DNA from: Acidobacteriota bacterium
GTDB taxonomy: Bacteria > Acidobacteriota > Vicinamibacteria > Vicinamibacterales > UBA2999
Assembly (NCBI GenBank): GCA_022842985.1
Contig: JALHON010000012.1
Location: forward strand, 1-36,496
DNA length: 36,496 bases
Direction of reading: 5' to 3'
Shown: positions 22,127-35,833 of the stretch, piece after piece
Layout: each line of letters starts with the position of its first letter
Position numbering within the stretch: position 1 is the stretch's first letter
The notes under the pieces: model-generated
Database searches by the model: none
What the model was told of the DNA's origin: nothing
Seen by the model: only the letters and a program-made list of their open reading frames with translations
Made by a program: the position numbers and the translations under genes

Positions 22127-22531
22127 CTAGCTCCCGGCACTCACGTGCTGGCGAATCCACTGGGCCAGCTGCTCTTCTGACGTCGTGCCATCGGCGAGCG
22201 AGACGATGGTTACGACGATGTCTGCCTCGGCGGCGTCGAACTCGACCGAATTGATCCCGAGGAACGTCACCAGCGTCAGGAAGCCGATGCGCTTGTTGCC
22301 GTCGCGGTACGGATGGTTCTTCACGAACCCGAAGGCGTAGGCGGCGGCCAGACTCGCGAGGTCCGTGGCGTTGTCGTAGTGCCACTTCTGCTGCGGGCGG
22401 ACCAGCGCCGATTCCAGCACGTTCTCGTCGCGTACGCCAGGGAGCCCGCCATGTTCGCGCAGCTGATCGTTGTGGATGGCGTCCACGACGAGGCGCGTGA
22501 GCCAGCGAGGCTCCTGACGCCGCTTTGCCAC
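22127..22531 (-). CDS. doc: Doc-type (Fic fold) toxin of a type II toxin-antitoxin pair
   Basis: 134 residues. The Fic/Doc signature HPYRDGNKR (residues 73-81) matches the Doc form of HxFx(D/E)GNxxR; Doc proteins phosphorylate EF-Tu and stop translation. The conserved N-terminal pattern GGLPGVRDENVLESAL is typical of death-on-curing proteins. GTG 22531 was chosen as the start: it lies 4 nt beyond the antitoxin stop, and the longer upstream frame would overlap the antitoxin and reads as Arg-rich shadow. Antitoxin-then-toxin order with tight spacing supports co-translation. Confidence 0.87.
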   Translation of the reverse strand: MAKRRQEPRWLTRLVVDAIHNDQLREHGGLPGVRDENVLESALVRPQQKWHYDNATDLASLAAAYAFGFVKNHPYRDGNKRIGFLTLVTFLGINSVEFDAAEADIVVTIVSLADGTTSEEQLAQWIRQHVSAGS

Positions 22532-22535
22532 GTCG

Positions 22536-22763
22536 CTACTTCGCGAGTTCCCGCAGGGCGTTGCGGTACTTCTTCGCCGCCTTGGCCGCGACCTGCAGTG
22601 CAAGCTCGGCGTCTGGATCGTACGGCGTGAGCAGGATGCCCTTGTCGGTCTCGACCGCCAGCACGCGGTCGCCGGCTTCGAGGCGCAGGCGGTCGGCCAT
22701 GTCCTTCGGCAGCGTGGCGCTGACGGAGCCGCCGGCCTGCCGGAGCGTCACTTCCTTGGTCAT
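22536..22763 (-). CDS. AbrB/MazE-type antitoxin partner of Doc
   Basis: 75 residues. The swapped-hairpin AbrB DNA-binding domain is visible as VTLRQAGGSVSATLPKDMADRL then LEAGDRVLAVETDKGILLTPYDPD, followed by a C-terminal helix (ALQVAAKAAKKYRNALRELA) that probably wraps the toxin. Classical phage P1 Doc pairs with Phd; here the partner is an AbrB-fold protein, an alternative seen in chromosomal pairs. ATG 22763 sits just downstream of a perfect 20-bp palindrome, so autorepression is likely. Confidence 0.88.
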   Translation of the reverse strand: MTKEVTLRQAGGSVSATLPKDMADRLRLEAGDRVLAVETDKGILLTPYDPDAELALQVAAKAAKKYRNALRELAK

Positions 22764-22771
22764 GCCCCGAG

Positions 22772-22791
22772 AGTAGCACATATGTGCTACT
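22772..22791. promoter_or_regulatory. Operator palindrome of the AbrB/Doc operon
   Basis: AGTAGCACATATGTGCTACT is a perfect 20-bp inverted repeat ending 9 nt upstream of the antitoxin ATG on the minus strand. Position and symmetry fit binding by an AbrB-fold antitoxin dimer. Confidence 0.7.
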
Positions 22792-22806: not shown

Positions 22807-24240
22807 CTAGTACTTCTTCTTCGGCGGTCCTGAACGTCCGCGCGGACCCCCGCCGAACCCACCGGGCTTGCGGCCGAAGCCGCCGCTGCCGCCGGGCTTC
22901 GGACCCCGCGGCCGGTCGCCCGCGGGGCGATCGCGCCACTCGGGTTTGGGACCACGCGGGCGATCACCGGCCGGCTTGTCGCGCCAGTCCGCCTTCGGCT
23001 TGTCCCGCCACTCGGGACGCGGGCCACTCGGACGGTCGCCACCACGGTCGAACGGTTTCGGGCGGTCGCGCCACTCGGGCTTCGGAGCACGCGGGCGATC
23101 GTCGCCGCCGCGATCGAAGGTCTTCGGGCGGTCGCGCCATTCGGGCCGCGGACCGCTGGGTCGATCCCCGCCGCGATCGAACGGCTTGGGTCTGTCGCGC
23201 CATTCGGGCTTCGGACCCCGCGGGCGATCATCGCCCCCGCGGTCGAACGTCTTCGGCCTGTCGCGCCACTCAGGCCGCGGACCGCTCGGGCGGTCACCAC
23301 CGCGATCGAACGGCTTGGGTCTGTCGCGCCATTCGGGCTTCGGACCCCGCGGCCGGTCGTCGCCGCCACGATCGAATGTCTTTGGGCGGTCGCGCCACTC
23401 AGGCCGCGGACCGCTCGGGCGGTCACCACCACGGTCGAACGGCTTGGGCCGATCGCGCCACTCGGGCTTCGGTCCACGCGGCCGATCACCAGCGGGCTTG
23501 TCACGCCATTCGGGCTTGGGCCTGTCGCGCCATTCGGGCTTCGGGCCACGCGCATCGGGACGCGGCGTCCAGCCAGGACGCCCGCCGCCGAAGCCGCCGC
23601 CCGGCTTGCCGCGCCATTCCGGCTTGGGCGGCCGCGCGCTCCACGCGCGCTTCGGTGCCGGGGCCTCGCCGCGATCGGCACGCGGACGTCCGCGCCAGTC
23701 GGTCGACGGCGCCGGCGCATCGTTGCGCGGGGAGTCATCGGCCGGGCCATCGTCGTTCGGGCCATCGGGCAGATTGAACGGTTCCGGATCGAAGCCCTGC
23801 GAGTCGATCGTGTCATCGGGTGCGTCGAGCGGACCGTCGAGCGGCGCGAAGACGTCCTCGTCGACCTTCGGGCCGTGGCCGGGCCGCGCGCGCACCATCT
23901 GCTTGAACTTCTGCCACTTCGCCTTCTTGGCGAGTTGGTACTTCTCGCGCGGGTCGCGGTGTTCGCCGCCCGGACGCCAGCTCTTGGTGCGCCGCTCGAA
24001 TCCTTCCGGCGGCGGCAGCAGCGCGCCGTCGGGACCAACCGTGTAGCCGGCCTCGAGCTTCTCTTTGGCCTCGTCGCGCGAGTCCCAGAGCCTGCCCTTC
24101 TCGAACCACTTCATCGTGGCGCCGGGCTGCTTGACCTGCAGGCGTTTCAGCGTGGGCAGCAGTTCATCGGGCTCGGCGGCACGAAAGGCGGTGGGGCCCC
24201 CGTCAACGAGGATGGTCCAGTACGCGTAGCGGGGTGGCAT
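22807..24240 (-). CDS. Unknown protein with conserved N-terminus and long repetitive Arg/Pro/Gly-rich tail
   Basis: 477 residues. Residues 1-100 look globular: PPRYAYWTILVDGGPTAFRA, LLPTLKRLQVKQPGATMKWFEKGRLWDS, GYTVGPDGALLPPPEGFERR. Then comes a basic helix (KYQLAKKAKWQKFKQ) and an acidic Asp/Pro segment (FAPLDGPLDAPDDTIDSQGF). From about residue 250 the protein is disordered repeats of PEWRDRPK(P/T)FDRGGD(D)RP(S/R)G: 3.5 copies of a 43-residue dimeric unit (21 + 22), ending RGRSGPPKKKY. The tail is strongly basic and RGG-like, suggesting RNA binding or condensate behaviour, an inference only. ATG 24240 has AGGA 7 nt upstream. No named family recognised. Confidence 0.8.
   Translation of the reverse strand: MPPRYAYWTILVDGGPTAFRAAEPDELLPTLKRLQVKQPGATMKWFEKGRLWDSRDEAKEKLEAGYTVGPDGALLPPPEGFERRTKSWRPGGEHRDPREKYQLAKKAKWQKFKQMVRARPGHGPKVDEDVFAPLDGPLDAPDDTIDSQGFDPEPFNLPDGPNDDGPADDSPRNDAPAPSTDWRGRPRADRGEAPAPKRAWSARPPKPEWRGKPGGGFGGGRPGWTPRPDARGPKPEWRDRPKPEWRDKPAGDRPRGPKPEWRDRPKPFDRGGDRPSGPRPEWRDRPKTFDRGGDDRPRGPKPEWRDRPKPFDRGGDRPSGPRPEWRDRPKTFDRGGDDRPRGPKPEWRDRPKPFDRGGDRPSGPRPEWRDRPKTFDRGGDDRPRAPKPEWRDRPKPFDRGGDRPSGPRPEWRDKPKADWRDKPAGDRPRGPKPEWRDRPAGDRPRGPKPGGSGGFGRKPGGFGGGPRGRSGPPKKKY
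22990..23480 (-). repeat. In-frame 129-bp tandem repeat inside the Arg/Pro/Gly-rich gene
   Basis: Alternating units of 63 and 66 bp encode the two versions of the repeat (PKPFDRGGDRPS and PKTFDRGGDDRPR). Three full A-B dimers plus a further A unit are visible, with degenerate copies at both edges. Near-identical codons between distant copies suggest recent expansion or gene conversion. Edges are approximate. Confidence 0.75.
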
Positions 24241-24279: not shown

Positions 24280-25707
24280 TTACTGTGCCAGATCGGGAAT
24301 CCGCTTGAGCTTTTCCACGAGGGTCGTGCGCTTCAGTCCGAGCAGGCGCGCGGCATCGGCGCGGTTGCCATCGGTGCGCGTCAGGGCGCGGCTGATGAGA
24401 TCGCGCTCGACGCGGGCGATGAGCGACGGCAGGTCCACACCGTCGTCGGGCAGGTCGAGCGTCGGCGCAGCTTCCACCGGCACCGACTGCACTTCGGGCG
24501 GCAGGTCCGTCACGTCGATCTGCGGACGCGTGCCGCGCAGAATGAGCGCGCGCTCCACGGCGTTCTCGAGCTGCCGCACGTTGCCCGGCCAGGCATAGGC
24601 CATGAGCCGGCGCATCGCATCCTGCGACACCATCACTTCGGGGCTGTTCGCCGCCTGTCCGTCGCGCGTCGTCACCTTGCGGATGAAGTGCTGCACGAGC
24701 AGCGGCACGTCTTCCTTGCGATCGCGCAGCGGCGGCAGGGTGAGCGGAATCACGTTGAGCCGGTAGTACAGGTCTTCGCGGAACGTGCCCTCGCCCACCA
24801 TCTTCAGCAGATCCGAGTTGGTCGCCGCGAGCACGCGCACGTCCACCTTGATCGTGCGGTTCTCGCCCACACGTTCGAACTCGCGCTCCTGCAGCACGCG
24901 CAGCAGCTTCTGCTGCAGCGGCATCGCCATCGTGCCCACTTCGTCGAGGAACAGCGTGCCGCGATCGGCCTGTTCGATGCGGCCCTGGCGCGTGGCCACG
25001 GCGCCGGTGAAGGCGCCGCGTGCGTGGCCGAAGAGTTCGGCTTCGAGCAGGTTCTCGGGAATCGCGCTGCAGTTGAGCGCCACGAAGCGCTGCTGCCGCC
25101 GCGGACTCGTCTGATGGATGGCGCGCGCCACCACTTCCTTGCCGGTGCCGGTTTCGCCGGTGATGAGCACGGTGGCGCCGCTCGGGGCCACGGTCTCGAT
25201 CATCTGGCAGAGGTCGCGCATCGGACCGCTGCGGCCGACGACACCCGGCAGCCCGTCGCGCTGTTCCAGCTGCTGGCGCAGGTACGCATTTTCCGAACGC
25301 AGGCGCCGTTGTTCGAGCGCAGATTCCAGCACGTGCAGCAGCTCTTCGAACTGGAAGGGCTTGCTGATGAAGTCCGACGCGCCGCGCTTGATCGCGTCGA
25401 CCGCGTCCTTCACGGTGCCGTAGCCCGTCACGACGATGCCGATGATGCCCGGATACCGCTGCAGCGCTTCCGCCAGGACTTCGCGGCCGTCGATGCCCGG
25501 CAGGCGCAGGTCCGAGACCAGCACGTCGAAGGCAAAGCGTTCGAGTTTCTCGAGGGCCTGTTCGCCCGACGAGGCCTCCGTCACCTGAAAGCCCGCGTCC
25601 GTGAGGCGCTCGGCCATCACAGTGCGCAGCGCGTCTTCGTCGTCAACGATCAGCAGATGGATGGATTCAGCCAAAGGGGGAACCTGGGGGTTTTCCGGAA
25701 GCGTCAA
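24280..25707 (-). CDS. Sigma-54-dependent response regulator (NtrC family)
   Basis: 475 residues in three domains. Receiver: LLIVDDEDALR with phosphoacceptor Asp66 (VSDLRLPG) and the Lys in ISKPF. AAA+ domain: Walker A GETGTGKE at 184-191, the sigma-54 contact loop GAFTGA at 231-236, Walker B TLFLDE. C-terminal Fis-type helix-turn-helix: LTRTDGNRADAARLLGLKRTTLVEKLK. It would open sigma-54 promoters when phosphorylated. Start is uncertain: TTG 25707 or TTG 25674, the latter giving a more typical length before the receiver. A sigma-54 promoter lies nearby at 26517-26533, and a hybrid kinase at 27442 is a plausible partner. Confidence 0.95.
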   Translation of the reverse strand: MTLPENPQVPPLAESIHLLIVDDEDALRTVMAERLTDAGFQVTEASSGEQALEKLERFAFDVLVSDLRLPGIDGREVLAEALQRYPGIIGIVVTGYGTVKDAVDAIKRGASDFISKPFQFEELLHVLESALEQRRLRSENAYLRQQLEQRDGLPGVVGRSGPMRDLCQMIETVAPSGATVLITGETGTGKEVVARAIHQTSPRRQQRFVALNCSAIPENLLEAELFGHARGAFTGAVATRQGRIEQADRGTLFLDEVGTMAMPLQQKLLRVLQEREFERVGENRTIKVDVRVLAATNSDLLKMVGEGTFREDLYYRLNVIPLTLPPLRDRKEDVPLLVQHFIRKVTTRDGQAANSPEVMVSQDAMRRLMAYAWPGNVRQLENAVERALILRGTRPQIDVTDLPPEVQSVPVEAAPTLDLPDDGVDLPSLIARVERDLISRALTRTDGNRADAARLLGLKRTTLVEKLKRIPDLAQ

Positions 25708-25824
25708 TATCCTGACACTTTCACCGCTGAGCCGTCAACCCTGAAATCTGGTCGGACTGGCACACCCCTGCCCTAATCCCCACGACACAGCAACCGATAC
25801 CAGCCTTTGAAGGAGAACTGACCT

Positions 25825-26019
25825 GTGGAACGTCAGACCATCAGCATCATGAAGGCGTGCGAGCTCGTGGGTGTCAGCCGGCGAACCATCTACAACTGGA
25901 TCGCGGCTGGTAAGGTTGAATACGTCCGCACGGCGGGCGGCAGCATCCGGATCTTCGTGGATACGCTGTGGCGTCAGCCGGACGGCAGCACGCGCGCTGG
26001 TTCCAGCCCTGCGGCTTAA
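25825..26019 (+). CDS. Small MerR/excisionase-type helix-turn-helix protein
   Basis: 64 residues, essentially one winged helix-turn-helix: ISIMKACELVGVSRRTIYNWIAAGKVEYVRTAGGSIRIF, the HTH_17 (excisionase/BldC-like) pattern where the helix pair reads the operator and the wing follows GKVEY. Start is GTG 25825 with AAGGAG 9 nt upstream. The gene is divergent from the sigma-54 activator with a 117-nt shared spacer. A BldC-like DNA coater or a phage-type Xis are possible; with no integrase here I favour the former. Confidence 0.82.
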   Translation: MERQTISIMKACELVGVSRRTIYNWIAAGKVEYVRTAGGSIRIFVDTLWRQPDGSTRAGSSPAA

Positions 26020-26051: not shown

Positions 26052-26285
26052 GTGAATACGTCGACCATCCCCCTGGAGACAGGCCCACAGGCACGGTCAG
26101 CCGATGACCTGCGCGGCCTGTTTCACCAGCTCAGCAATCAGCTCGGCATCGTTCTCGCCAACGCCGAGCTGATGGAGCTCAAGCTGAGCGATCCCGCTCA
26201 GCGCGCCCGTGCCACAACCGTGGTCAATGCGGCGCTCGAAGCGATGGCCACCTCCCGCGCCATCCGCGACGTGTCGGGTCTCTGA
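26052..26285 (+). CDS. Stand-alone histidine-kinase dimerisation (DHp)-like mini-protein
   Basis: 77 residues. DDLRGLFHQLSNQLGIVLANAELMEL (residues 18-43) closely mimics the H-box helix of sensor kinases (HELNNPLxxIxxxAELL), with His25 at the phosphorylation site but Ser-Asn-Gln-Leu in place of Asn-Asn-Pro-Leu. A second helix (ALEAMATSRAIRDVSGL) matches the DHp return helix. There is no ATPase domain and the frame stops, so it cannot autophosphorylate. It might act as a phosphotransfer module, a dimerisation antagonist, or a kinase remnant. Start GTG 26052, 32 nt after the HTH gene. Confidence 0.65.
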   Translation: MNTSTIPLETGPQARSADDLRGLFHQLSNQLGIVLANAELMELKLSDPAQRARATTVVNAALEAMATSRAIRDVSGL

Positions 26286-26364
26286 CCCCACACCGTCAAT
26301 CCTCGTCATCCCCGACCAAAATTCGACGCCACTCGCCGTCACTGGCTTGGCGTAGCACACTCTG

Positions 26365-26388
26365 AAACCGCCAAGAACTTGGCGGTTT
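26365..26388. terminator. Strong inverted repeat after the DHp-like gene (possible bidirectional terminator)
   Basis: AAACCGCCAAG and CTTGGCGGTTT are perfect inverted repeats around AA; as RNA this is a 10-bp stem with a GAAC tetraloop, with A-tract and T-tract flanks of three bases. It lies 80 nt downstream of the 26285 stop. The U-run is short, so termination is uncertain; an activator-binding site is an alternative. Confidence 0.45.
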
Positions 26389-26412
26389 GGGTGCGTATTC
26401 GCCCATCTTCCG

Positions 26413-26436
26413 CGTAGTGCACGGGCTTGCACTACG
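26413..26436. promoter_or_regulatory. Inverted repeat, candidate enhancer (upstream activator) site
   Basis: CGTAGTGCA and TGCACTACG are perfect 9-bp arms around CGGGCT. The centre is about 95 bp upstream of the -24 GG of the sigma-54 promoter at 26517-26533, the usual distance for binding of an NtrC-type activator. An activator gene of that class lies about 0.7 kb away. Confidence 0.5.
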
Positions 26437-26516
26437 AATCCGTAAGCCATTAATAATCAAGCACTTAGTAACAAATTTCGCAGGCCAAGAGCGGCCAAAC
26501 GCAGTGTTGCGCGAAT

Positions 26517-26533
26517 CTGGCATCGGCAATGCA
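26517..26533 (+). promoter_or_regulatory. Sigma-54 (-24/-12) promoter upstream of the FliA-like sigma gene
   Basis: CTGGCATCGGCAATGCA matches the consensus YTGGCACGN4-5TTGCA with the invariant GG (26519-26520) and GC (26531-26532) at the required 10-nt separation; it deviates at three less critical bases. Transcription would start near 26543, leaving a leader of about 40 nt with ribosome site AGGAG before the ATG at 26585. The 299-nt spacer 26286-26584 is unusually AT-rich in part (26449-26480). Confidence 0.6.
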
Positions 26534-26584
26534 AGAGTGCTCGGCGTCCGCCACGAACGGCGGATCAACAGGAGCCCGATTTCC

Positions 26585-27616
26585 ATGACCGCCGAGCACA
26601 CCGCCGAGCAGATCAACCCCCGAGTCGAAGCTGGTATCCCGTTCGTCGAGGCGCTGGCGCGTCGCGTGGCCGCCACCATGCCGCACTCGATCGACCTGGG
26701 CGACCTGGTGCAGGACGGGGTCATCGGGCTCATCGATGCCGCCAAGCGGTTCGAGGAATCGCGGGGCATCAAGTTCGAGACCTTCGCCGAGCGCCGCGTG
26801 CGCGGGGCGATGATCGACGCCCTCCGCAAGGATGCCTGGCCGCGTGGCGTGCGCCGCGTGCGCCGCGAGCTCGAGGCGGCGCGTGAGCGCCTGCGCCTCT
26901 CGCTCGGTCACGAGCCGTCGCTGGCGGATCTGGCCGCCGCGGTCGGGTCTGACGAAGAGCGCCTCGGCAAGGTGATCGTCCGCATCAACACCATCGAGCA
27001 GACGTCGCCGCTCTCGTGCGCCGACAACATCGACGAATCGCAGCTCCCCGCCGTGCTCGTGCCGGTGGAAGCCGAGCGTCCCGACGCCGCCTACGAGCGG
27101 CGCGAAGTGCAGGACCGGGTGCGCGGCGCCATCGCCTCGCTGCCCCCGCGCGAACGCCGCGTCATCGCCCTCTATTACTACGGCGAAGTCACGATGAAGG
27201 AAATCGGCGCCGAACTCGGCGTGAACGAATCGCGCGTCTCGCAGCTCCACGCCCGCGCGCTGCGCCGTCTGCGTGAAGCCCTCGGCCCGGATGCCACGCC
27301 CGTCGCGGCGATGGCGGCCATCCGCCAGGCCGTCGTGGCCTTCGAACACCGCCCGAAGATGGCCAAGGCGTCGCTGCCCCAGAGCGACACGGTGGTGCCG
27401 CCGGCCGCGGTGGAACGCGCCGAACGTGGAATCGTGATCGACTACGCCAGCGCTTCGCGCGCCGCGCGCAGCAAGTCGCCGAGCCGGAAGGGCTTGGAGA
27501 GCCACCGGCAGCCGCTGTCCTCGAGGAAGCGTTCGGCGTCGGTGCCGGCCACGTCGCCCGTGACGAAGATGACGCGTCGCGCCAGCGCCGGGGTGGCCGC
27601 GGTCATGGCCCTGTAG
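26585..27616 (+). CDS. FliA/WhiG-type (sigma-28 family) RNA polymerase sigma factor with C-terminal tail
   Basis: 343 residues from ATG 26585 (AGGAG about 10 nt upstream; an earlier in-frame start would add unrelated sequence). Region 2: DLGDLVQDGVIGLIDAAKRF then FETFAERRVRGAMIDALRKDAW, the sigma-28 pattern. Region 3: ELEAARERLRLSLGHEPSLADLA. Region 4: LPPRERRVIALYYYGEVTMKEIGAELGVNESRVSQLHARALRRL, ending near residue 232. The remaining 111 residues form a tail with no recognised domain, the last 58 codons lying antisense to the hybrid kinase gene. No flagellar or sporulation genes occur in the window, so the regulon is unknown. A sigma-54 promoter precedes it. Confidence 0.9.
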   Translation: MTAEHTAEQINPRVEAGIPFVEALARRVAATMPHSIDLGDLVQDGVIGLIDAAKRFEESRGIKFETFAERRVRGAMIDALRKDAWPRGVRRVRRELEAARERLRLSLGHEPSLADLAAAVGSDEERLGKVIVRINTIEQTSPLSCADNIDESQLPAVLVPVEAERPDAAYERREVQDRVRGAIASLPPRERRVIALYYYGEVTMKEIGAELGVNESRVSQLHARALRRLREALGPDATPVAAMAAIRQAVVAFEHRPKMAKASLPQSDTVVPPAAVERAERGIVIDYASASRAARSKSPSRKGLESHRQPLSSRKRSASVPATSPVTKMTRRASAGVAAVMAL

Positions 27617-29076
27617 AACCGGATGCCGTCCACGCGCGGCATCTTCAGATCGCACACGATCAGGTCGTAGTGGTTTTCGGCGACGAGCGCGAGGCCTTCC
27701 TCGCCGTCGCCGGCCCGATCCACGACGAACCCGGCGTCCACGAACGATTCCTTCACCGCACTGGCGAGCGCCGGCTCGTCTTCCACGACGAGCACGCGCG
27801 CGCCCTTGAACACGTCGCGCTTCGGCGCAGCCGTGGCGGCTGGAGCCGGCGGCGGCGGCGGAGGGGGCGCATGGTGCAGGCGTCTGGCCGGGGCGGTCGC
27901 GCCCACCGGCGACATCGGAAACTCCACGAAGAACGAGGCACCGGCGCCCGGCCGTGATTCGAGGCGGATGCGTCCGCCGTGTTCCTGCACGATCGCGTAG
28001 GCCACCGTGAGCCCGAGCCCGGTGCCCTTGCCCACTTCCTTCGTGGTGAAGAAGGGATCGAAGATCTTCCCCTTCACGTCTTCGGCCACGCCCGGCCCGT
28101 CGTCGTTCACTTCCATCACCACCATCTGCTTGGCGCTGTCGTGCCACGTGCGGATGACGATCGTGCCGCGGCCGTTGGCGCCGAGCATCGCCTGCTCGGC
28201 GTTCATCAGCAGGTTGAGCAGCACCTGCTTCACCTGGTGGCCGTCGGCGAACACGGCCGGCAGCCCGGCGGCGAGCGCCGGGATGACGGTGATGTTCGTG
28301 ATGCGCTGCTCGTAGGCGCGCAGGTTCAGTGTTTCGCGGATGATCTCGTTCAGATCGACGAGCGCGCGCGTGCTCTGCCGCTTCCTCGCGAACGTGAGCA
28401 GGTTGCGCACGATCCGGGCGGCGCGTTCCGACTCGCTCAGGATCACGTCGAGCCCGCGCTTGAGCGGCGCGTTGCCGTCGGCGTGCTCCGACAGACGCTC
28501 GGCCCACGACAGGATCGTCGCCAGCGGATTGTTGAGCTCGTGCGCCACGCCCGAGATGGTCTGGCCGAGGGCCGCCATCTTCTCCGTCTGCAGCAGCTGG
28601 TAGTAGAGATCGCGCGACTGCACCTCGAGGTGCTTGCGCTCGCTCACGTCGCGCACGAGCGCTTCGATGCGCATGGCACCGGTGGAATCGGGCGGATCGG
28701 CCGTGGCCGTCACTTCGATCCAGGCCAGCGTGTTGTCGGCGCGGCGCAGGCGCACCAGGTAATCCGCCACCGATCCGGCGTTCGCCAGACGTTCGAGGAA
28801 GGCGACGCGCGCCTGCGGATCGGCGAAGCGGCCCACGTCGAACGGCCGTACTTCGCGCTCGAACGTCTCTGGCGGATAGCCGAGCACGAGCTTCAGGTGC
28901 GGGTTCGCGGCGAGCGTGGTCGTGGTGGCCGCATGCACCATCCCGATGTACACGCCTTCGTGGACCGCCTCGAAGAGGCGCGCGAAGGCCGCCGCGCGGT
29001 CGTCCACCACCGGGCTCAGCGCTTCTTCGGCGGCACCGGCGGCGTCGGTGTCTTGGTGTGGTGCTGCGGCGTCCAT
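27442..29076 (-). CDS. Hybrid sensor histidine kinase (PAS-HisKA-HATPase-receiver)
   Basis: 544 residues, no membrane segment, so a cytoplasmic sensor. PAS domain about 25-150. DHp H-box GVAHELNNPLATIL with His179. ATPase domain: N-box NLLMNAEQAM, G1 DDGPGV, F-box FDPFFTTKEVGKG, G2 GTGLGL. Then a proline-rich linker (PPPPPPPAPAA) and a receiver domain with VVEDEPAL, phosphoacceptor Asp476 (IVCDLKMPRV) and WLSKPF. Its 3' end overlaps the sigma factor gene antisense by 175 nt, and its 5' end overlaps the upstream PCYCGC gene by 61 nt. The start ATG 29076 has a weak GGAA site. It may feed the NtrC-type regulator; not shown by sequence. Confidence 0.94.
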   Translation of the reverse strand: MDAAAPHQDTDAAGAAEEALSPVVDDRAAAFARLFEAVHEGVYIGMVHAATTTTLAANPHLKLVLGYPPETFEREVRPFDVGRFADPQARVAFLERLANAGSVADYLVRLRRADNTLAWIEVTATADPPDSTGAMRIEALVRDVSERKHLEVQSRDLYYQLLQTEKMAALGQTISGVAHELNNPLATILSWAERLSEHADGNAPLKRGLDVILSESERAARIVRNLLTFARKRQSTRALVDLNEIIRETLNLRAYEQRITNITVIPALAAGLPAVFADGHQVKQVLLNLLMNAEQAMLGANGRGTIVIRTWHDSAKQMVVMEVNDDGPGVAEDVKGKIFDPFFTTKEVGKGTGLGLTVAYAIVQEHGGRIRLESRPGAGASFFVEFPMSPVGATAPARRLHHAPPPPPPPAPAATAAPKRDVFKGARVLVVEDEPALASAVKESFVDAGFVVDRAGDGEEGLALVAENHYDLIVCDLKMPRVDGIRFYRAMTAATPALARRVIFVTGDVAGTDAERFLEDSGCRWLSKPFRLGDLLRAAREALA

Positions 29077-29504
29077 TTCCGTTCGATCGCGGCCCGGATG
29101 CTCGCCACGTCGGCGCCGGAGTTGTAGAGCTGCATCGTCTCGCGCGCCACGTCGACGCAGATCGCGCAGCCGAAGCCGTGCGTGTCCCAGCGGGTCACGT
29201 TGCCGTTGGCATCGCGGGCGCCGATGAAGCAGTTTTCGTTGTTGCGATGCCCGTCGGCTTCGCAGCCGCAGTAACAGGGCACGTACCGCGACACCTCCGG
29301 GTGGCGTGCCGCGAACTCGTAGACCGCGCGCGTGACCGCCAGCGGCCGCGCCAGCGCGTAGCCGGCGGTGTTGAGCGGGGGCAGCGGCGCCTGGGCCGCC
29401 GCCGTGGCCGGTCTGGCCGGACCACCCTGCCGCGCAACGAGCGCCACCGCGAACGAGACCGTGAGAGCCAGAGCCAGCGCGCCAACTCGGGGGAGCGTAC
29501 GCAT
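29016..29504 (-). CDS. Secreted PCYCGC-motif protein, unknown function
   Basis: 162 residues with a signal peptide (about 1-26, ALALALTVSFAVALVA). The defining motif PCYCGC is at 76-81, followed by Cys92 and a second pair in HGFGCAICVDVA (Cys113, Cys116), the pattern of the PCYCGC domain family, which probably binds a metal or forms redox-active disulfides. The preceding helix VTRAVYEFAARHPEVSRYV is also typical. The C-terminus is Thr/Pro/Lys-rich. It is the first gene of a two-gene unit with the hybrid kinase, so the kinase may respond to its state; this is speculation from the overlap. Start is ATG 29504. Confidence 0.85.
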   Translation of the reverse strand: MRTLPRVGALALALTVSFAVALVARQGGPARPATAAAQAPLPPLNTAGYALARPLAVTRAVYEFAARHPEVSRYVPCYCGCEADGHRNNENCFIGARDANGNVTRWDTHGFGCAICVDVARETMQLYNSGADVASIRAAIERKWTPQHHTKTPTPPVPPKKR

Positions 29505-35141: not shown

Positions 35142-35213
35142 GGCTAACGATGCCAAATCAGCCGCCCGCCGACTCGTGACATCCGGCGCGTCGGCTGCAT
35201 TTGGATGTTATGC
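35142..35213 (-). other. attC-like (integron cassette recombination) site
   Basis: A 72-bp imperfect palindrome. Read on the minus strand: GCATAAC (35213-35207), a folded region, then GTTAGCC (35148-35142), matching RYYYAAC...GTTRRRY with one deviation each. The paired inner boxes are ATTTGG/CCAAAT (35199-35204, 35153-35158), CGGCT/AGCCG (35192-35196, 35160-35164) and CGGCG/CGCCG (35184-35188, 35167-35171), with one extra unpaired base on one arm. The upstream gene's TAA stop lies within the first box, as is usual for cassettes. No second site and no integrase are visible. Confidence 0.5.
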
Positions 35214-35519
35214 CGCACCCCGTTTGGGTTGCGTATGGAGGGCCTGAATCACCGCTTTCGGATTGCGAGCCGCGACGCGAAGCAACGCCAGCGCCGGGCC
35301 ATCCGGTGTACGCCGGCCCTGCTCCCAATTCCGGAGCGTGGCGACGCTGACGCCGATCATCAGGGCGAACTCGGCCTGCGACGCGCCGAGCTTCGCCCGC
35401 ACCGCTTGGACGTCGGTGGGCTCGAACGTGGTCGTCCGTGCGGGCCGGCGAGTGCCACGACGAATTGCACCCGCCTGGCGCACGCTGGCGAGGAGCTCGT
35501 GAAACGCAGTGTCCTTCAT
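35208..35519 (-). CDS. HigA/NadS-like helix-turn-helix antitoxin
   Basis: 103 residues. The Xre helix-turn-helix is VQAVRAKLGASQAEFALMIGVSVATLRNWEQGRRTPDGPALALLR, typical of NadS/HigA antitoxins that follow their toxin. The N-terminal 45 residues probably contact the toxin. The ATG overlaps the toxin stop by 4 nt (ATGA). The stop codon TAA is embedded in the outer box of the attC-like site. Likely represses the operon through the palindrome at 35844-35860. Confidence 0.85.
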   Translation of the reverse strand: MKDTAFHELLASVRQAGAIRRGTRRPARTTTFEPTDVQAVRAKLGASQAEFALMIGVSVATLRNWEQGRRTPDGPALALLRVAARNPKAVIQALHTQPKRGAA

Positions 35520-35833
35520 TTGAATTCCTCTCGAACCACCTTCGCGAGCGCGCGGACTTGCAGGGCCGTCAGGTCTCCCTGATCGACCTTCGCGTAGATG
35601 TAGAGCATGTAAAACACGCTCTCACCCGGGGCCCAGTAGTAGATCACGCGAACCCCGCCCCGCTTGCCGACCCCAGCCGACGCCCACCGCACCTTCCGGA
35701 GACCACCGGACCCCTTGATGGTCGGTCCCTGTTCGGGTCGAAGCATCAACGCGATCTGCAGTTGCCGGTACCGTTCGTCGTCGAGGTGCCGCTGAAGCAC
35801 CGCCGTGAACACGGACGTCTCGACGAACCGCAT
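35516..35833 (-). CDS. RelE/HigB-family toxin
   Basis: 105 residues. Pattern: FVETSVFTAVLQRHLDDERYRQLQIALMLRPEQGPTIKGSGGLRKVRWASAGVGKRGGVRVIYYW then VFYMLYIYAKVDQGDLT, matching the RelE-superfamily strand order with basic residues around GGLRKVRW and KRGGVRVIYY used for ribosome/mRNA contact. Family members cleave mRNA on the ribosome. Toxin-first order with an Xre antitoxin is the HigBA arrangement. ATG 35833 is preceded by a palindrome over the probable promoter. Confidence 0.85.
   Translation of the reverse strand: MRFVETSVFTAVLQRHLDDERYRQLQIALMLRPEQGPTIKGSGGLRKVRWASAGVGKRGGVRVIYYWAPGESVFYMLYIYAKVDQGDLTALQVRALAKVVREEFK

Follow-up and report, generated by a model that had tools for sequence, protein, structure and literature searches.

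In Borrelia burgdorferi, the NtrC-like activator Rrp2 and sigma-54 (RpoN) switch on a second sigma factor, RpoS, which controls surface lipoproteins (PMC3037356). In the flagellar hierarchy, sigma-54 activators of the FleQ/FlrC type stand above the sigma-28-type factor FliA. WhiG of Streptomyces and Rubrobacter is a FliA-type sigma factor with a non-flagellar task and is held by the c-di-GMP anti-sigma factor RsiG. The locus studied here, within a window of 36,496 nucleotides (the whole stretch of DNA that was analysed), shows partial likeness to each. As in Borrelia, an NtrC-type activator and sigma-54 would lead to a second sigma factor and from there to surface lipoproteins; this second sigma factor is, however, of the FliA/WhiG type and not RpoS, the locus has tandem boxes and a likely feed-forward promoter, and the lineages are unrelated. 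The order of a sigma-54 activator above a sigma-28-type factor is that of the flagellar hierarchy, but the present cassette has no flagellar genes, is kept in genomes without FlhA and encodes a sigma factor of a separate clade. With WhiG it shares a FliA-type sigma factor, a presumably non-flagellar task and the promoter class, whereas the control that can be seen here is a sigma-54 promoter. The predicted cascade resembles the Borrelia sigma-54 to sigma-S and the flagellar hierarchies, and the tests made on the sequence do not place it within either. A search of the open-licence PubMed Central literature did not return a description of it.

On the plus strand, the cassette encodes a 64-aa helix-turn-helix (HTH) protein, a 77-aa protein and the sigma factor, flanked by a divergent gene for an NtrC-type regulator and a convergent one for a hybrid histidine kinase. 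The sigma factor (26585..27616, plus strand) was assigned to the FliA/WhiG type by the model TIGR02479 (200.8 bits, cut-off 189.6) and by its position in a tree; RpoS models gave 68.0 against a cut-off of 378.7, so it is not RpoS. Membership in this family, the flagellar class of the promoter upstream of the HTH gene and the presence of flagellar genes in the same genome would all be compatible with a sigma gene that is a FliA, or an additional one, and acts on flagellar genes at other places in the genome. We consider this very unlikely. Flagellar FlhA is found on contig C256 of the same genome, followed after about 1.1 kb by a distinct FliA that shares 44% identity with the sigma factor of the window. 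This paralogue alone passed the FliA model NF005413, with 228.5 against a cut-off of 201; the window sigma factor reached 177.1. In a quick tree, cassette sigma factors (19 rows) formed one group with a support of 100 and flagellar FliAs (12 rows) another with a support of 93. Furthermore, FlhA was present in 18 of the 40 genomes compared, the own genome included, and was without a match in 20 of the 36 genomes with a sigma orthologue, 13 of these 20 being listed as at least 95% complete. The window sigma factor is thus of the FliA/WhiG type, but was rejected as the flagellar FliA on the grounds of the separate gene on C256, the NF005413 score and the tree. The preliminary description had spoken of a FliA-type sigma gene remote from flagellar genes; this holds for the cassette, which contains none, but not for the genome, with its FlhA and own FliA on C256.

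The 40 genomes, the own one and its relatives, represent 34 genera. A close orthologue of the sigma factor (57-100% identity, above 300 bits) was present in 36 of them and was not found in G003, G013, G027 and G030. For promoter comparisons, 35 of the 36 orthologous loci had enough upstream DNA, L106 lying too near its end, and made up a first set. A second set was drawn from named relatives of the sigma factor, of which 80 were kept out of 246 found; their titles were mostly Acidobacteria, five of them Vicinamibacterales, and removal of 23 duplicates and one too-short locus left 56 loci. Across 149 genomes of the phylum, 11 matched the cassette sigma factor at E 1e-55 or better, a cut-off chosen to exclude FliA. 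All 11 are of the same order, orders being known for the listed genomes and the 118 genomes without a match not being among those listed; G027, a listed genome of this order, had no match. Several public records whose titles name Cyanobacteria, Acidimicrobiia or Bifidobacterium breve also carry the cassette sigma factor (L140, L149, L152, L185 and L190). As these are metagenome bins, the titles are probably wrong.

A putative sigma-54 promoter precedes the sigma gene at 26518-26533 on the plus strand (TGGCATCGGCAATGCA). Its GG (26519-26520) and GC (26531-26532) are 10 nt apart, it ends 52 nt 5' of the ATG at 26585, and its -12 element reads ATGC, departing from TTGC. Taken alone, such a match was not above chance: with TGGCACGN4TTGCW and up to 3 mismatches, the whole window gave 53 matches against a mean of 62 in shuffled sequences. 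We judge it real because of its conservation across orthologous loci, TGGYAYN5TTGC being present with at most one mismatch upstream of the sigma gene in all 35 loci of the first set and all 56 of the second. The promoter of the sigma gene is hence, as judged from these loci, a conserved sigma-54-type promoter with a GG-N10-GC core, in the place and with the spacing first proposed for it. An RpoN DNA-binding domain was detected in 37 of the 40 genomes and in 34 of the 36 with a sigma orthologue; the domain search did not find it in G001, G013 and G024. G001, listed as 100% complete, and G024 carry the cassette sigma orthologue, and these two cases argue against the sigma-54 model unless the assemblies are incomplete. 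In the own genome, strict -24/-12 sites numbered 26 against 10 in the control, the window's own promoter not being among the 26. A wider sigma-54 regulon was considered for this genome and set aside: boxes numbered 7 against 6 for the reversed pattern, a background level, and we claim no further targets.

The conserved enhancer consists of two palindromic boxes, GYCA-N6-TGRC, which resemble FleQ boxes and lie at 26338-26351 (box 1, GTCACTGGCTTGGC) and 26370-26383 (box 2, GCCAAGAACTTGGC), the latter ending 135 bp before the GG. This assignment, made by comparison of orthologous loci, differs from the preliminary description, in which activator dimers were placed on a 9-bp-arm inverted repeat downstream of both boxes, at 26413-26436 (CGTAGTGCA-N6-TGCACTACG). 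The repeat is exactly as had been described: it is perfect, it is not expected by chance (none of 100 shuffles matched it, even with 3 mismatches), and its distance of about 95 bp 5' of the GG would be workable for an enhancer. It was, however, private to this genome, being the only perfect 9-bp-arm repeat between box 2 and promoter among the 35 loci. The same-genus loci L064, L101 and L102 do not have it and keep both boxes and the promoter. We therefore give practically no credence to the repeat itself as the enhancer, its non-conservation having ruled it out. Perfect repeats of at least 7 bp, all different, occurred in 6 of 35 loci, against 1.5 in shuffles.

Both boxes, by comparison, were recovered with at most one mismatch over the pair in 31 of the 35 loci; L099 and L077 had 2 mismatches, L082 had 3, and in L095 box 1 was cut by the contig end. 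The distance from the end of box 2 to the GG was 133-137 bp in 31 of 35 loci, and 132 bp in L083, 122 in L092, 121 in L082 and 110 in L080. In the second set, all three elements were found with at most one mismatch in 49 of the 56 loci and with at most two in 54; the spacing was 133-136 bp in 43 and 120-124 bp, about one helical turn shorter, in 8. Since the site pickers choose the best site within a range, the two sets were combined and checked against shuffled sequences. Both boxes and the -24/-12 element were present in 80 of 91 orthologous promoters at spacings of 90-189 bp, 68 of them at 130-137 bp, and in none of 1,820 dinucleotide shuffles; the 91 loci are related and thus do not represent 91 independent events. 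The distance between promoter and ATG ranged from 28 to 157 bp among loci, and the fixed spacing of boxes and promoter can therefore not be put down simply to sequence that has stayed unchanged. G014 gave no FlhA match; in 1.60 Mb of this genome the architecture occurred once, at the sigma gene, and it occurred once in the window. None was found in 0.31 Mb of flagellar clusters, but this is a weak test, as those stretches contain no exact TGGYAYN5TTGC at all. At 26455..26467 on the plus strand lies a site (AATCAAGCACTTA) that we take to be IHF-like by its consensus. Of the 35 loci, 13 have such a site between boxes and promoter when one mismatch is allowed; mononucleotide shuffles gave a mean of 1.9 and a maximum of 5.

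The neighbouring regulator gene (24280..25707, minus strand; its TTG start is doubtful) encodes everything that defines an NtrC-type enhancer-binding regulator: a receiver (PF00072), an AAA+ domain (PF00158) and a Fis-type HTH (PF02954, with LKRTTLVEKLKR). The GAFTGA reported for this activator was present in the translation. FleQ has a helix similar to LKRTTLVEKLKR, and FleQ chains were among the solved-structure matches of the regulator, without being the best. The site bound by FleQ is a 14-bp palindrome in which 2 nt separate GTCAAT from ATTGAC (PMC10723142), and the outer half-sites of the cassette boxes are the same. We treat this likeness, a comparison of motifs, as a lead only.

The own genome has 72 matches to the regulator, and the flagellar-cluster regulator is 53-54% identical to it and has a similar HTH (LSRTTLIDKLNR), so the boxes might be read by another NtrC-type regulator, for example the flagellar one, and the gene next door be incidental. 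We find this unlikely, since 31 of the 36 loci keep the neighbouring gene beside the sigma gene and genomes without FlhA still have the boxes. Where the regulator was not seen, contig ends came first in L095, L102 and L106, and the 667 bp available at L103 hold another gene. In the remaining locus, L083 of G039, the regulator is absent beside the sigma gene, but the contig carries an orthologue (64% identity, E 4e-187) at a distance of 58 kb. The boxes of this locus are preserved, which fits a regulator that works in trans. A further box is found where the regulator gene itself begins (25703..25716, GTCAATATCCTGAC). An exact box was present near the regulator start in 50 of 75 intergenic regions between the regulator and HTH genes, against 31 of 1,500 shuffles of these regions, and a box with at most one mismatch in 67 of 75. 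This box suggests autoregulation and is a further point for the neighbouring regulator as the protein that would read the boxes. In a quick regulator tree, five flagellar-cluster regulators formed one group (support 100) placed among the cassette ones (supports 84-91). A kinship of both kinds of regulator is likely on this basis.

Upstream of the HTH gene, between it and the regulator gene, we noted a predicted sigma-28-type promoter, CTAA-N16-ACCGATA, at 25773..25799 on the plus strand. The TAA-CCGATA motif was first noticed in 28 loci. As TA[AC]-N17/18-CCGA[TAC]A it was present in 63 of 78 loci, a count from which two loci were removed because their HTH gene borders a contig end: 24 of 29 in the first set and 39 of 49 in the named set, which had not been used for finding the motif. 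Thirteen of the 15 loci missing the full motif still had CCGATA, and at other spacings, from 6 to 29, at most 2 of 80 loci matched. The motif fits the consensus of WhiG and flagellar promoters, TAAA at -35 and GCCGATAA at -10, as given in PMC8325347. Because the HTH and DHp-like genes lie just upstream of the sigma gene, such a promoter predicts a feed-forward loop, and its sequence suggests that the sigma factor acts on its own cassette through 25773-25799. Where a flagellar FliA exists, it could read this element instead, and no feed-forward would follow. We hold this reading by another sigma factor to be doubtful, since genomes that lack an FlhA match have the element as well and no second FliA-like match above 100 bits was found in G014.

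The same promoter class pointed to a possible target outside the cassette. A strict scan for TAA-N16/17-N-CCGATA over 1.60 Mb of G014, about half of the genome, returned the cassette promoter and two others. TAA-N17 sites exceeded those at other spacings by a handful at most, and in the scanned half sites with one mismatch showed no excess at the right spacing. One candidate, L247, was rejected since it starts inside a coding frame. The only perfect TAAA-N16-GCCGATA in the scan ends 23 nt 5' of the ATG of a 403-aa secreted lipoprotein, so called from a signal and Cys read by eye, with Pfam matches under the cut-off. This lipoprotein had matches at E 1e-10 in 16 of the 40 genomes, and 14 upstream regions were compared, G035 and G031 being left out. 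TAAA-N15/16-NCCGATA was present in 9 of the 14 (G000-G005, G010, G014 and G025); G033 and G036 had TACA, G026 and G038 only CCGATA, and G032 neither. The conservation among orthologues supports this promoter as a target. G003 has the lipoprotein promoter and a flagellar FliA and is without the cassette sigma factor, so both sigma factors may read it. The lipoprotein family (L267:14833-16041 and homologues in L295-L324) shares a common C-terminal part with no Pfam match above the cut-off, and is multi-copy in some genomes, with 7 matches in G038.

At the other end of the proposed pathway, the hybrid kinase (27442..29076, minus strand) was confirmed by its HisKA, HATPase and receiver domains, and the gene was present in 33 of 36 loci. 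Judging from adjacency, it may act on the neighbouring activator. Both tiny genes of the preliminary description exist as well. The 64-aa HTH protein (25825..26019, plus strand) is excisionase/MerR-like (TIGR01764, 39.9 bits, cut-off 28.8) and was matched in 30 of 36 loci, with no match in G026 and G038. The 77-aa protein (26052..26285, plus strand) was without a Pfam match in the window; it was matched in 32 of 36 loci, L095 and L106 being cut by contig ends, and was absent at L080 and L103, the latter having another gene; the genomes counted as lacking it are G014 and G021. Its His25 (FHQLSNQLGI) was invariant in the 32 aligned rows, hhalign aligned it to the H-box region of the kinase's own DHp domain with 91.5% over 33 columns, and its structure model was a two-helix hairpin (pLDDT 87). 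From sequence and model, the protein has what characterizes a DHp domain, a predicted helical hairpin and a conserved H-box histidine. Hybrid kinases commonly depend on a phosphotransfer partner when the receiver is on another protein, and this DHp-like protein would therefore be a natural candidate.

The sigma and kinase genes are convergent and overlap over 175 bp (27442-27616) at the 3' end of the kinase gene. Of 33 loci, 23 have precisely this length of overlap, 2 have 145 bp, and 8 have none or 4 bp. The overlap is probably a by-product of the kinase coding sequence, because most loci with a sigma gene that ends earlier also show no internal stop codon in the frame; the persistence of this open frame opposite shorter sigma genes led us to discard the sigma tail as a selected feature. 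Overlapping transcripts of both genes would be mutually antisense.

The genes, the boxes, both promoter classes, their conservation and their spacing are established from the DNA itself; from them we infer the steps of binding, phosphotransfer and transcription and the reading of the second promoter class by the sigma factor. The hybrid kinase would phosphorylate the NtrC-type regulator, possibly via the DHp-like protein, and regulator dimers would bind the two FleQ-type boxes, which are separated by about three turns of the helix. With the DNA looped, perhaps bent at the IHF-like site, the AAA+ ring would open the sigma-54 polymerase at the -24/-12 promoter, and the FliA/WhiG-type sigma factor would be made. 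The latter would read TAA-N17/18-CCGATA promoters before the HTH and DHp-like genes, feeding forward, and before the secreted lipoprotein, while the box at the regulator gene would let the regulator control itself. We are reasonably confident in this chain from hybrid kinase through activator and sigma-54 to a non-flagellar sigma-28-type factor, with feed-forward and a surface protein, as a reading of the sequence, and in its retention across an order of Acidobacteriota. Of the cascade originally proposed, the sigma-54 promoter, the FliA-type sigma factor and the adjacent NtrC-type activator stood and proved conserved; the repeat as activator site did not. For the full picture, in which a non-flagellar cascade from sigma-54 to a sigma-28-type factor extends through the order, with near-fixed geometry, feed-forward, a stand-alone DHp protein as phosphorelay link, surface lipoproteins as output and a regulator lineage common with the flagellar hierarchy of these bacteria, we put the chances at about even. 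If true, a soil group of mostly uncultured bacteria would have a sigma cascade of its own, in which a flagellum-type sigma factor is turned to another use by sigma-54; the spacing rules and targets of the cascade are open to immediate testing. The cassette, with a promoter layout near-identical in dozens of relatives, would represent a compact switch by which one sigma factor apparently turns on another. New in this work are the corrected enhancer and two further putative regulatory links, the promoters of the HTH gene and of the lipoprotein.

Some other genes of the window may be mentioned. After the kinase gene, here and in several relatives, lies a gene for a PCYCGC-motif protein (29016-29504, minus strand; PF13798) of unassigned function. 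Beyond the regulator gene, an ORF at 22807-24240 on the minus strand has an N-terminal part that recurs beside the regulator in most of 20 loci compared, and its C-terminal half is, by eye, a long repeat run rich in Arg, Pro, Lys and Trp-Arg-Asp. At 22127-22778, again on the minus strand, a Fic/Doc-type toxin-like ORF with HPYRDGNKRIGF, which we take to be the motif of this type, adjoins the end of a small AbrB-type antitoxin-like ORF, and the two are likely a toxin-antitoxin pair. Finally, two adjacent small ORFs at 35208-35833 on the minus strand resemble, by eye, a toxin of the HigB/RelE type and an HTH antitoxin of the HigA type.
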